DNA of 64,000 nucleotides from Thermococcus chitonophagus. GTDB lineage: Archaea > Methanobacteriota_B > Thermococci > Thermococcales > Thermococcaceae. A program made the position numbers and the translations under genes. This document shows, piece by piece, positions 32,458 to 38,112 of this stretch (the stretch's first letter is position 1; every line of letters begins with the position of its first letter). The notes below the pieces were generated by a model. That model was not told the origin of the DNA, did not search any database, and was given only the letters and a program-made list of their open reading frames with translations. Location: assembly GCF_002214605.1 (NCBI RefSeq), contig NZ_CP015193.1:1468978-1532977 (forward strand), given 5' to 3'.

Positions 32458-33326
32458 TTTGCACCCCTTCCTGTCTTAGTTACCCAATATTCAGCCCTAA
32501 TCCCCATTTCCTCAAAAGCCTCTCCCATGGCCTTTGCAACTTCCCTTAAGTTCTCCCCTACAGCGAACATCGCCGGACCAGATCCGGAAACCGTTACACC
32601 GTACGCCCCAGCGTTCAGTGCGGCCTCCCTAACTTTGTCAAACCACGGCATAAGCTTCTTTCTGTAAGGCAGAGCTAATCTGTCATCCAGTAGCCTTCCG
32701 ATGGTCTCTATATCCTCCTCTCTCAGGGCCAGGACAAGGCTAGATGCCATTGCAAGATTTTTAACTGCATCCTTTAAGGGTACTTTCTCAGGGAGGACTT
32801 TTCTGGCCTCACTGGTTGGAACTTCAACCTCTGGAAGAACCACCGCTACTTTGAGTTCTACATCTATCCTGTGAACTCTGAGGGGGCTTATCGATTCTAT
32901 GATCGTGAAGCCACCATAGTAGGAGGGTATAACGTTGTCACCATGGGGACTTCCTGAAGCCGCCCTCTCCCCTTCCAGTGCTGCCCGGATTATGAGCTCA
33001 TCATCCTCAACTCCTAGAACCTTCGCAGCAGCAACGGCACCTGCAAGTGAGGATGCTCCAGAGCTCCCGAGACCGCTTTTTGGTCTTATTCCTTTCTTGA
33101 GCTTCATGTAAACACCGCCTTCCTCGCCTAAAAGTTTGAAGAGGGCCTTAGCAGCCACCACTGCAACGTTGCTACCATCAGCAGGAACCTTGTGTCCTAT
33201 GACCTCTATCCGGAAATTATCGCACTCCTTTACGACAACTTCATCTCCAGGTTTCTCTATTGCCATCCCGAACACGTCAAATCCTGGCCCAAAGTTCGCT
33301 ATAGTTGCCGGAGCGTAGACTTTCAT
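32448..33326 (-). CDS. thrB: Homoserine kinase
   Basis: About 292 residues, GHMP kinase. ATP-loop 'IRPKSGLGSSGASSLAGA' (about 88-105), N-terminal 'VYAPATIANFGPGFD' and C-terminal 'YGVTVSGSGPAMFAV'. It phosphorylates homoserine. The second ATG (33326) is as good as the first (33332). The start overlaps the aspartokinase end by about 50 bases. Homoserine dehydrogenase is not in this operon and must be elsewhere. Confidence 0.94.
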   Translation of the reverse strand: MKVYAPATIANFGPGFDVFGMAIEKPGDEVVVKECDNFRIEVIGHKVPADGSNVAVVAAKALFKLLGEEGGVYMKLKKGIRPKSGLGSSGASSLAGAVAAAKVLGVEDDELIIRAALEGERAASGSPHGDNVIPSYYGGFTIIESISPLRVHRIDVELKVAVVLPEVEVPTSEARKVLPEKVPLKDAVKNLAMASSLVLALREEDIETIGRLLDDRLALPYRKKLMPWFDKVREAALNAGAYGVTVSGSGPAMFAVGENLREVAKAMGEAFEEMGIRAEYWVTKTGRGAKWF

Positions 33327-34347
33327 TCTCAACCACCATCCTGTGTATTTCTCTTACGGCGCGAGTTAGCTCATCTTTTGGAACTTCAAGCCTAACAAAA
33401 TTCTCTCCTCTCTCAATTACCTTATATGGCCCATAGAACGCGTTTGCCCCAACTATAGAAACCTCTGCTCTCTCCTGAGTGTTCCTGTGGACGACGATTG
33501 GAATTCTCAAGCTGTCTTCCATAACCAAGGTCCCAAAGCGCCAGTCCTTTGTCTTCCCGAATATTACTGGGATCTTGTTCTCTACGGGATCTATGGCTCT
33601 CCAATGCAACGCCTTCATCCCAAGTCTCGCGGCAGTCCTAGCTTCCTCATACGAGAGGTATGGAATTAGTTTTGCACTTGGAACTATCCTGGGGTCAGCT
33701 GTGTATATTCCCTCAACGTCGCTCATTATGACCACGGCCTTTGCATCAAGAAGGCTCGCTAGTGCTGTCGCAGAGTAATCACTCCCTCCCCTTCCGAACG
33801 TTGCTCTGAATCCGTTGAGATCACCGTAGAAACCAGTGACTACGGGAACTACACCCTTAGCGAGGAGCTTCTTTAAAAGTGAAATCCTCCCCTTGCTAGC
33901 TTTCATATCGACCTCTGCAGACCCGAAAGATCCTCTGGCAACGAGGACGTCCTTTGAGTCTATAGCCTTGGCCTCAACCCCTATCAGCCTTAACCCTTCA
34001 GCGAATAGCACTGAAGAGAACCTCTCTCCAAAGGATACTACTGCATCCCTATAGCACTCCTCCGTTGGGAAGTTCTGATTCAGTGTTAGTTCAAGCTCCC
34101 TGAAAAGGCCATCCAAATTTATTCCAAGCTCCTCGCAGAAGGGCTCATGTATTTCCCTTATCCTGTCCAAGGCCTCCATGTCTCCCTCTGCAAGGCGTAT
34201 AAGCTCATCTGTGACACCTTTAAGGGCAGAAACCACAACCACTACAGATCTTCCTTCAGAAACGTGCTTCACTAGCTCCAAAGCTTCCTCAAAGGCGTAC
34301 CTTACCGAGCTCCCTCCAAACTTAATAACGAAGGGTTTCTCCACCAC
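33277..34347 (-). CDS. Aspartokinase, second of a tandem pair
   Basis: About 356 residues from a GTG at 34347 (GGGGTGA about ten bases upstream, ten bases after the previous stop). The longer frame to 34482 lies inside the upstream gene. Kinase motifs: 'VIKFGGSSVRYA', 'GRGGSDYSATAL' and 'DVEGIYTADPRIVP'. After about residue 280 only one ACT-like stretch remains, against two in ordinary aspartokinases. It shares layout with the gene before it. Confidence 0.88.
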   Translation of the reverse strand: MVEKPFVIKFGGSSVRYAFEEALELVKHVSEGRSVVVVVSALKGVTDELIRLAEGDMEALDRIREIHEPFCEELGINLDGLFRELELTLNQNFPTEECYRDAVVSFGERFSSVLFAEGLRLIGVEAKAIDSKDVLVARGSFGSAEVDMKASKGRISLLKKLLAKGVVPVVTGFYGDLNGFRATFGRGGSDYSATALASLLDAKAVVIMSDVEGIYTADPRIVPSAKLIPYLSYEEARTAARLGMKALHWRAIDPVENKIPVIFGKTKDWRFGTLVMEDSLRIPIVVHRNTQERAEVSIVGANAFYGPYKVIERGENFVRLEVPKDELTRAVREIHRMVVENESLRSGNYSELWARI

Positions 34348-34357
34348 CGATTGTAGT

Positions 34358-35488
34358 TCACCCCGAGGGCTCAAGATTTTCTTCTTCGTAATAAAATTTT
34401 CGAATGATATTTCGTTTTTGTGACAAATTTTTGATCGAAACCTGCTGATAGTGCTCACTTTTCCACTGAATGTCAAGTCCAAATTGAAAAATTGACTGGG
34501 TAGGAGAAAATATCCTCTTATGGAGCTCCCTCACTACCTTCAATGCCTCGCTCTCTGAGAGAGCATAGAGCTTCCAGTAAGGACCTTCTTCTATGGGATC
34601 ATATCCAATGTCCTCTGTAACGTTTATTAAGAGGAGCCTATCCTTTGTGAATGTCATTAGGGGCATGCCTGAACTTCTCTCACTTAATACAGTCCCCATC
34701 CTCCAGTTTCTTGTCCTTCCAAACAGCACGGTTAGCTTGAAATCTTTAGCCAGCTTCGAGGCCTTCCATTGAATCGCCCGCATTCCGTATCTAGAGGCGA
34801 GCAAGGCTTCATCATACGAAAGGTAGGGGATCAACTTGGCCATGGGGATTATCCTGGGATCAGCTGTATATATACCATCAACATCACTCATTATTACAAC
34901 GAACTCAGAATCTAGAAGAACACCAAGGGCGACAGCCGAATAATCACTCCCTCCCCTCCCCAGAGTCGCAATTCTGCCATCAAGATTAGCCACAAATCCA
35001 GGAACAACTGGGACAAAGCCATTCTCGAGAGCTTCATATATCAACTTAGTATTTCTCCTGCTCTTCTCAATGTCAATGAATGCATCGCCGAACTCGCCCC
35101 TTCCAATGAATATTTCCTCCCCCGGGATGACTTTTCCACCCACGGCACTTGCGAAAAGAACTGCTGAAAGTAACTCTCCCATACTGAGGATATAGTCCCT
35201 GAGGGCGGGATATTCAAGATCGGGGAGAGTGAAGAGTCTATCTATGTAGGGCTTCAGAACCGAGGGATCAATGCCATTAAGCTTTGCATGATAAATATAT
35301 TCACTCGCAACCTTTACGGCGAGATCCTGATTTAAGCTATCAGCGTATCTTATTAGATCGTCTGTAACTCCTTTGAGGGCTGAAACAACTACAACTACCT
35401 CACTCTCTTCAAATAAATTAGTTATCAAGGAAACAGCATCCTGAAAGTCAAGTCTCATTGAGCTCCCGCCGAACTTAAAGACTATCAT
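34358..35488 (-). CDS. Aspartokinase, first of a tandem pair
   Basis: 376 residues. Kinase core with 'IVFKFGGSSMRLD', 'GRGGSDYSAVALG' and 'DVDGIYTADPRIIP'. Its C-terminus has one short ACT-like region and then a basic tail (about 340-376) not seen in its partner. It heads the threonine operon: TATA GATATATAAAA (35518-35528, minus strand) and GAGGAGAG two bases before the ATG. The two paralogues may form a heteromer, one subunit regulating the other; that is inference. Confidence 0.88.
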   Translation of the reverse strand: MIVFKFGGSSMRLDFQDAVSLITNLFEESEVVVVVSALKGVTDDLIRYADSLNQDLAVKVASEYIYHAKLNGIDPSVLKPYIDRLFTLPDLEYPALRDYILSMGELLSAVLFASAVGGKVIPGEEIFIGRGEFGDAFIDIEKSRRNTKLIYEALENGFVPVVPGFVANLDGRIATLGRGGSDYSAVALGVLLDSEFVVIMSDVDGIYTADPRIIPMAKLIPYLSYDEALLASRYGMRAIQWKASKLAKDFKLTVLFGRTRNWRMGTVLSERSSGMPLMTFTKDRLLLINVTEDIGYDPIEEGPYWKLYALSESEALKVVRELHKRIFSPTQSIFQFGLDIQWKSEHYQQVSIKNLSQKRNIIRKFYYEEENLEPSG

Positions 35489-35639: not shown

Positions 35640-36719
35640 TTAGAGAGTTACACTCTCAAGTTTGTTCTTCTTTACAATGTACGTATCCTCATGCTTTATA
35701 CTTCCCTCGGGCAACATTAGGGGAGCGTGAATTATGCTGAGAACCATGTTCTCCTGAACCTTTTGAGCCCTTGTTTGGACTATTATCGTCGGCATTGGTA
35801 GCTCTTCAATCAGTAAACCAACGCCGTGAGTGTAACCTGTAATGTATTCATTTTCAAACCCCTTCGCCCTGAAAAACTCTGCCAACTTTTTCTCAACGGA
35901 ATTTAAGACCACTCCAACCCTGGTCTCTTCTAATGCTAGCCTGTAAGCTTCTTCCTTGACCTTTATCGCCTCTCTAACCCTTCCCCCAGGATCTCCAATG
36001 ACAAACGTTCTAGCCATGTTAGCGTAGTAGTGATTGTAGTCGGCACCGATAACCACCGTAACTACTCCATTCTCCTTAACCTTCAGGTCACGGAAGGGCT
36101 CGGCGTGGGCTCGGGGGGTTGTGGAGACGTAAACCTTAGGATCCTCGCTACCCCTGATCATGAGCTCCCTCATTATCTCAGCGGCTATCTCGAGCTCGCT
36201 CTTTCCTGGTTTTATCACTTCCTCAGCAACTTCCATTCCAGCCTTTGCTATCTTTCCAGCCTTCCTTATCTGCTCAAGCTCCCACTCGTCCTTAATCATC
36301 CTAAGGCCCATTGTTATGTCCAGAATATCTACAACATCCACTGTTGGATTCAATCTCTGGAATATCCTAAGGAATGCAAGGTATGCATCCCTCTCAAAGC
36401 CGAACTCAAGTCCAACCCTCTCCATCCCGTTGTTGTGTATCCACGTAACTACCGAAGCCATGAGATCCTCGACCCTCTGGTACTCCTCAACGTCCTCTAT
36501 CCAGCTTCTCCTCTTGAATTCCTCGGCCTCATTCCTTACCACAAGAACCTTGGGCTCTCCCTCAGCCGGGATTAGAAGGGAAGGCCTAAGCCACTTGGTT
36601 CCGGTAAAGTAGATAAAAGAGGATTGTGTCCTTATAACTGCTCCATCTATATCCCTTTTCCTGAGCTCCTCCTGGAACCTCTCAACTCTTCTCCTAAATA
36701 TTTCTTCATTCATTTTCAT
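35640..36719 (-). CDS. M24 pita-bread protein related to prolidase, metal ligands lost
   Basis: 359 residues with the creatinase N-domain (about 1-130) and the pita-bread C-domain of Xaa-Pro peptidases. In Pyrococcus prolidase the five metal ligands are D, D, H, E, E. Here the first block reads 'VVIGADYNHYYANMART' where prolidase has D-L-G-A-x-Y-N-H-Y-N-S-D-I-T-R-T, so both aspartates are replaced (by V and N). The histidine remains in 'THGVGLLIEELP' and the last glutamate in 'KHEDTYIV', but the glutamate of the 'T-I-E-P' block is gone ('LSIIHAP'). It is probably not a peptidase of the usual kind; it may be a binding protein or use other chemistry. Confidence 0.8.
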   Translation of the reverse strand: MKMNEEIFRRRVERFQEELRKRDIDGAVIRTQSSFIYFTGTKWLRPSLLIPAEGEPKVLVVRNEAEEFKRRSWIEDVEEYQRVEDLMASVVTWIHNNGMERVGLEFGFERDAYLAFLRIFQRLNPTVDVVDILDITMGLRMIKDEWELEQIRKAGKIAKAGMEVAEEVIKPGKSELEIAAEIMRELMIRGSEDPKVYVSTTPRAHAEPFRDLKVKENGVVTVVIGADYNHYYANMARTFVIGDPGGRVREAIKVKEEAYRLALEETRVGVVLNSVEKKLAEFFRAKGFENEYITGYTHGVGLLIEELPMPTIIVQTRAQKVQENMVLSIIHAPLMLPEGSIKHEDTYIVKKNKLESVTL

Positions 36720-36801
36720 TCACCCCGTCCTGTACTTTTCAACCTTACAACAACTCTTCTTAGCCTTAGGACTTATATAGTCGGGAGGGATATAGGGGAT
36801 T

Positions 36802-38112
36802 TCAGTCCCTCCAGTCCAGTAGCCTTTTTTCTCCCTCAAGCTCCTTATACCTTTTCACGTCCATGGTTATCTCAAGCGTTCCCAGATATTCGCCTTTTTC
36901 GTTCTTCACTGGGACATACAGAATATAAACAAACTTATCCCCCAGTTTAAGCCAAAATTCAGCCTTATCTTTCCTGCCATCCTTGAAAGCTTTAAGTATC
37001 TTATTAACTATATGAACGCTCTTTGGAGGATGGCAAAGCTGGACAGGCCTCCCTAGGATATTTAAAGGCCTTGCAAAAATCCTCTCTCCTGGAGAAAAGA
37101 AGCGAACTCTATCGTTCTTATCTACAAAAGTTATATCGAGAGGGAGTGCCTCAAATATTGCTTTTAGTTCTTCAACGCTTAAATAGCCAGTCCCCAGGTC
37201 AATGTCCCCAGGTCTCTTCACGTCCCCACTCTTATCCGGTTGTAGGCCGTACTTTTCTATGGCTTTTCTGACTTCTTGGGGCAGACTTAATATTTTTTCT
37301 GCAGAGAGTTCGGGATCGATCTGCCATGGATAAATAGGCTCAACTCCAGGATCCCATTCCCCAGGCCTCACCTTATAGTAGCCAAATTCCTCCTCTTGCA
37401 TCCTTATAGCCTTCCATTCTCCATCCCCAAGGAGGGCTTCTACTGTTGGATAAAGGATATTGTCCTCCCTGAAAACCATGTCAATTAAGGCTCTTGATGC
37501 TTCTTGTGCCTCTCTAATGAACTTCTCGTAATCCTTTTTAGCGAGGAATTCTTGAAGTCTCTTTATCATGAACCTTATTTCATCATGCTTCGTCCACAGG
37601 ACTGTAGCAACTGCAGTAAGACCAAGCCTTTCTATGTAGGGAAAGAGGAGCATCTCCTCCCTGCTGTAGTGCGTAAATCCAATGAGCCTTAAGCTCTTGA
37701 CGAGCTCCTCTAGAACTTCAATCATTTGTTTTCTCACTGCTTCATCTTGAGTCTTGCTGAGGGTTTGGGCGTACAGGTTTAGCATCTCTGCATCTTTTAT
37801 TATCTCCCGGTTCTCAAAGTATAACGTTTTTAGAGGGTGACCATCAGGCAAATGGGAGTAATTGCCAGCTCCTGCTACTGATTCCCTAAATACCTCAACA
37901 TGCAGATCGCACATCTTAGCTATGTCCTTAACGGAGATTCCTTCTTTCACAAGCTCCTGCTCTATGAGAGGTATTTCAAGAGGGGATATTGAAGCAAGTA
38001 CTTCCCTAAACTCCTCCTTCAGCTCTTCAACGTCGGCACCCTCATGGAGTTTCAATAGTAGTCCCTTGAGCTTCTCCTTCTTTACCTCAAAATTTTTCAA
38101 CCCTTCAGTCAT
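36802..38112 (-). CDS. DUF438 protein with hemerythrin-like and PAS domains
   Basis: 436 residues in three parts: DUF438 (about 1-75), a hemerythrin-like four-helix domain (about 85-235) with histidines in 'FTHYSREEMLLFPYIE' and 'VLWTKHDEIRFM', and a C-terminal PAS domain (about 315-425) with 'LPLDITFVDKNDRVRFFSP' and 'LGRPVQLCHPPKSV'. Such proteins are thought to sense oxygen, nitric oxide or redox state through iron or haem. It has no output domain. A dyad at 38123-38136 lies between its TATA box and its ATG. Confidence 0.85.
   Translation of the reverse strand: MTEGLKNFEVKKEKLKGLLLKLHEGADVEELKEEFREVLASISPLEIPLIEQELVKEGISVKDIAKMCDLHVEVFRESVAGAGNYSHLPDGHPLKTLYFENREIIKDAEMLNLYAQTLSKTQDEAVRKQMIEVLEELVKSLRLIGFTHYSREEMLLFPYIERLGLTAVATVLWTKHDEIRFMIKRLQEFLAKKDYEKFIREAQEASRALIDMVFREDNILYPTVEALLGDGEWKAIRMQEEEFGYYKVRPGEWDPGVEPIYPWQIDPELSAEKILSLPQEVRKAIEKYGLQPDKSGDVKRPGDIDLGTGYLSVEELKAIFEALPLDITFVDKNDRVRFFSPGERIFARPLNILGRPVQLCHPPKSVHIVNKILKAFKDGRKDKAEFWLKLGDKFVYILYVPVKNEKGEYLGTLEITMDVKRYKELEGEKRLLDWRD

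Follow-up and report, generated by a model that had tools for sequence, protein, structure and literature searches.

A hyperthermophile-centred clade of M24-fold proteins with conserved changes at the prolidase metal-ligand positions

The protein encoded at 35640..36719 (minus strand) of the window, a 64,000-nucleotide stretch of the Thermococcus chitonophagus genome, has the fold of a prolidase and an altered set of the five classical prolidase metal ligands, and we propose here that it represents a new, distinct, monophyletic, and hyperthermophile-centred clade of the M24 superfamily that also includes a few bacterial members. Rather than being a dead enzyme, the protein probably still works, with an altered active site, and its sequence makes an ordinary two-metal prolidase unlikely. 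The explanation we favor, with a probability of about one-half, is that it is an M24-clade enzyme in which the dinuclear site has been remodelled to hold one divalent metal and which acts on a small substrate resembling an amide or a peptide.

The open reading frame occupies exactly these coordinates, is intact, and codes for 359 aa, in agreement with the original prediction that it is unbroken. The protein is organized with a Creatinase_N domain (residues 11-142; 1.3e-17, 64.9 bits against a Pfam cut-off of 22) followed by a Peptidase_M24 domain (residues 149-350; 2.3e-33, 116.2 bits against a cut-off of 23), and its predicted structure matches M24 structures with Z scores of 29-40, placing it in the M24 or creatinase-prolidase (pita-bread) superfamily. 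The window protein also matches the Pyrococcus furiosus prolidase 1PV9 at an E value of 7.9e-26. The T. chitonophagus genome codes for two further M24 proteins, one of which is a canonical PepQ with 5/5 metal ligands.

Residues of the window protein were paired with those of P. furiosus prolidase, whose numbering is used here, by alignment to 1PV9 and to a profile built from 21 PepQ prolidases of Thermococcaceae; the family counts are from 93 aligned rows (84 distinct), using only those rows in which a given position is present. The first-metal ligand Asp209 corresponds to V223 (codon 36051..36053, on the minus strand like all codons given here; 88 V and 2 I), the bridging ligand Asp220 to N234 (36018..36020; N in 91/91 rows), and Glu313, in the wide-profile alignment, to H331 (35727..35729; H in 90/90 rows). 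Two ligands are retained, His284 as H298 (35826..35828; 90 H and 1 Y) and the bridging Glu327 as E344 (35688..35690; 89 E and 1 A); the single Y is in locus L093, which simple gene calling breaks into several pieces, and the single A is probably that of locus L050, in which the 3' end is out of register. Where an Xaa-Pro dipeptidase has D, D, H, E, and E, the window protein and the whole family have V, N, H, H, and E, and these changes are not the result of sequencing error or chance. The original prediction that both aspartates are replaced, by V and N, together with one glutamate, while the histidine and the last glutamate stay, is confirmed by alignment with M24 families and by conservation in the orthologues, with the caveat that the Glu313 position is alignment-sensitive. 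A narrow profile built from the Thermococcaceae members alone aligns Glu313 with I330 without a gap, whereas wide profiles that add crenarchaeal and WOR-3 members place it on H331 with each of four query sequences; some of those added members have one extra residue in this stretch, and the wide profiles put the insertion before the His. Because the wide profiles agree on H331, we take the third change to be Glu to His and not a plain loss, although the narrow alignment disagrees. Two of the five ligands are thus plainly missing, and the third replacement is probably by a histidine.

The clade is widespread, with orthologues in 75 of 94 Thermococcaceae genomes, and the ∼50 of these that were aligned have the same substitutions. 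Scanning of 84,980 species genomes shows further members in DHVE2/Aciduliprofundum, WOR-3, Desulfurococcales/Pyrodictiaceae, Thermoproteales, and Baldrarchaeota, with identity down to ∼42%; many of these non-Thermococcaceae members are on MAG contigs, so that any one assignment may be mistaken, although several are on long contigs. The aligned family rows (∼84 distinct) represent Thermococcaceae, DHVE2, Thermoproteota, Baldrarchaeota, and WOR-3, and in a tree the clade is set apart from PepQ by a long stem (1.49 changes per site) whose branch has 100/100 support. The clade is further distinguished by a shared signature composed of KWLRP, ERD, PRxHAEP, VIGxD, YxN, GxxHxVGLxIEE, H331, and E344. 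The earlier expectation that the gene is kept is in accord with this spread and with substitutions that are overwhelmingly synonymous: the nearest species pair has a pS of 0.66 and a pN of 0.04, and selection is strongly purifying, with synonymous change in wider pairs being saturated and giving no precise pS/pN ratio. One genome (G069) has two copies of the gene 7 kb apart (C2:354217-355290 and 361992-363065), with 78% and 75% identity to the window protein. Interrupted copies are present in two genomes of a single genus, with an in-frame TAG in L051 (G080) and a frame shift close to the 3' end in L050 (G078), reflecting either decay or sequencing error.

Among the 93 rows, R45, E109-R110-D111, R140, H205, E207, D227, N234, R237, E305-E306, and H331 are invariant where present, and K342 is nearly so. 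These polar residues are of active-site type and are distributed over both domains. The H205-A206-E207 codons (36099..36107, minus strand) belong to PRxHAEP, a motif specific to the family that lies close to the His kept from the prolidase substrate pocket, and both H205 and E207 are present in 89/89 rows.

The upstream neighbor (36802..38112, minus strand) codes for a 436-aa protein with DUF438, hemerythrin, and PAS_10 domains, and it is a conserved but not obligate companion of the M24 gene. Of 43 loci fetched, 24 contain both genes; they come from Thermococcaceae, DHVE2, WOR-3, and Thermoproteales, with a less close arrangement in the last, and in many relatives the M24 gene is directly behind the DUF438 gene on the same strand. 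In the 27 genomes measured, the intergenic distance is -1 to 22 bp in one large group, 55 bp, 85 bp in the window, ∼320-410 bp in another large group, and near 1.5 kb in two genomes, and the genes are far apart in two others (G004 and G007). The -1 to 22 bp spacing suggests that the M24 gene is probably co-transcribed with its neighbor in many relatives. In the window, the promoter of its own that was part of the original prediction is plausible, as the 85-bp gap contains a TATA-like element (TATATAAG; 36772..36779, minus strand) ∼52 bases 5' of the ATG, with GGGGTGA immediately preceding the ATG, both read by eye. Co-presence of the two genes is significant (61 genomes with both, 8 with neither, and 1 and 4 discordant; Fisher 2.8e-7, a value uncorrected for shared ancestry or joint deletion). 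As an obligate partner the DUF438 protein is rejected, because the M24 gene is present without it in G005, G010, G018, and G073, and DUF438 is found alone in one genome. In G009 (L005) and G010 (L007), an intact M24 gene is immediately preceded by what is left of the DUF438-hemerythrin-PAS gene, broken by stops and frame shifts, and in these species the partner gene is degenerating. A literature search on DUF438 found no function for it.

Several of the loci L059, L060, L066, L068, and L089 have a small cupin gene (∼103-116 aa) between the DUF438 and M24 genes, and a TusA-like gene is nearby in others. On the other side of the window M24 gene are two adjacent aspartate-kinase-like genes with AA_kinase domains (33277-35488, minus strand), which overlap by ∼125 bases if the first start codons are used and are followed by homoserine kinase, threonine synthase, and aspartate-semialdehyde dehydrogenase-like genes, together a cluster for the threonine pathway that contains two kinase paralogues. 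The aspartate kinase and homoserine kinase genes were considered as a functional context and rejected, as the downstream genes differ in other lineages.

The predicted structure (pLDDT 84.4, pTM 0.84) is best matched by the P. furiosus orthologue (Z of 40), followed by creatinases, Xanthomonas campestris prolidase, DoeA, and others at Z of 29-34; the loop of residues 297-315 that contains H298 has a pLDDT below 50. The orthologue is represented by two Protein Data Bank entries, 9KW9 (Co) and 9KWA (Mn), which are titled "proline dipeptidase" and whose metals are known here from the entry titles. No publication on these entries or on the clade was found in the library searched. Structural ranking, including by Foldseek, does not discriminate between creatinase-like and prolidase-like functions, as the scores are too close.

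Prolidases of Pyrococcus horikoshii bind the first metal through Asp, Asp, and Glu and the second through Asp, His, Glu, and Glu (PMC2814137). In the clade it is only the Asp209-based site that is clearly destroyed, whereas the second site has changed from D/H/E/E to N/H/H/E and could hold one metal. Asn is still able to coordinate a metal, and enzymes that work without metal are known in the M24 fold. The first site is without its private ligand, and the second has N, H, H, and E. The simplest account is either a rebuilt one-metal site or metal-free working. That all four second-site positions are potential ligands, essentially invariant in at least four phyla, supports the one-metal alternative, as do the pairing of H331 with Glu313 in the wide profiles and the entry titles "complexed with Co" and "with Mn" of the orthologue; counting against it are the narrow profile, with I330 at Glu313, and the poorly modelled H298 loop, and the Co and Mn may be sited elsewhere or be soaking artefacts. 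In the one-metal enzyme that we favor, the site would have been remodelled most simply once, in the ancestor of the clade, with loss of the Asp209-based site and conversion of Asp220, His284, Glu313, and Glu327 to Asn234, His298, His331, and Glu344. A single divalent metal would be held by two His and a Glu, possibly with the Asn, and the invariant R45, H205, E207, D227, and E305-E306, with K342, may bind or polarise the substrate. A bolder version, which we consider improbable, has a mononuclear 2-His-1-carboxylate (plus Asn) centre, perhaps with Fe or Mn, performing chemistry new to the fold, with a connection to redox or oxygen biology of the kind that the hemerythrin-PAS neighbor hints at.

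The metal-free alternative is a hydrolase of the creatinase or ectoine hydrolase (DoeA/EutD) type, in which the ligands are abandoned and His/Glu acid-base chemistry acts on a small C-N substrate. The three best structural matches after the orthologue are creatinases (Z of 33.4-33.8), with DoeA at 32.6, but true prolidases are within ∼1-2 Z units; a sequence profile finds creatinase over the full length of the protein (3.2e-14), and the invariant H205 near the retained pocket His suits such chemistry. The NCBIfam DoeA_2 model also scores, although at 102.4 bits it is far under its cut-off of 575, and a second ectoine hydrolase model gives 42.2 bits against 613; inspection of part of the window revealed no ectoine genes. 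The catalytic Glu of creatinase, in the L-E-R-T motif, is Ala, Thr, or Ser in the clade, with N234 two residues before it, and this, together with the plausible metal triad of H298, H331, and E344 and the deposited Co and Mn complexes, makes a metal-free hydrolase doubtful, though worth keeping in view. It is highly unlikely that the protein is an ordinary Xaa-Pro dipeptidase able to function with the altered ligands. This reading is favored by the name of the P. furiosus entries, but this may derive from automatic annotation and a database name alone is not evidence; the NCBIfam PepQ_Arch model gives 124.7 bits against a cut-off of 630, a true PepQ that keeps all five ligands is encoded in the same genome, and the classical mechanism requires Asp209 and Asp220.

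The original prediction preferred another function, such as peptide binding or a scaffold, and this fares no better than an enzyme, given N, H, H, and E at one metal site and the many new polar residues that are invariant. A pseudoenzyme that binds peptides or proteins, like the Spt16 N-terminal domain or Ebp1, is consistent with the changed ligands and with the match of Spt16 domains to the model at Z of ∼30, and a sensory complex with the PAS and hemerythrin domain neighbor is imaginable. However, retention of the M24 gene where DUF438 is missing or decayed argues against a fixed complex with that neighbor, and a scaffold would have no need of the His, Glu, Asp, and Arg residues that cluster at active-site positions and stay invariant across very great evolutionary distances. 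This dense conservation of charged and polar residues points to catalysis or specific small-ligand chemistry, and a scaffold role is correspondingly unlikely.

If the remodelled mononuclear centre is correct, the clade is a natural example of conversion from a two-metal to a one-metal active site in a well-studied fold. The M24 variant is a function to be assigned in most Thermococcales, and its structural representative has the proline dipeptidase label despite the changed ligands. The 9KW9/9KWA protein is ∼72% identical to the window protein end to end, with the same V, N, and H substitutions and no defining difference. PepQ of P. furiosus and P. horikoshii (1PV9 and 1WY2) has the same two-domain fold, a similar length, and His284 and Glu327 in common with the window protein, but the two share 28% identity, Asp209, Asp220, and Glu313 are replaced in the clade, and PepQ lacks the PRxHAEP, KWLRP, and ERD motifs. 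Creatinases (1CHM, 1KP0, and 7YTO), in which the classical metal ligands are also altered, have the same fold at 17-19% identity but lack the H/H/E set that the clade retains. DoeA/EutD (6TWK and 6YO9; 21% identity) likewise has the fold with altered ligands, although the replacement residues differ from those of the clade. The Spt16 N-terminal domain of FACT shares the fold at 12-16% identity and has no classical ligands, but it is a histone-binding domain of a eukaryotic multidomain protein.
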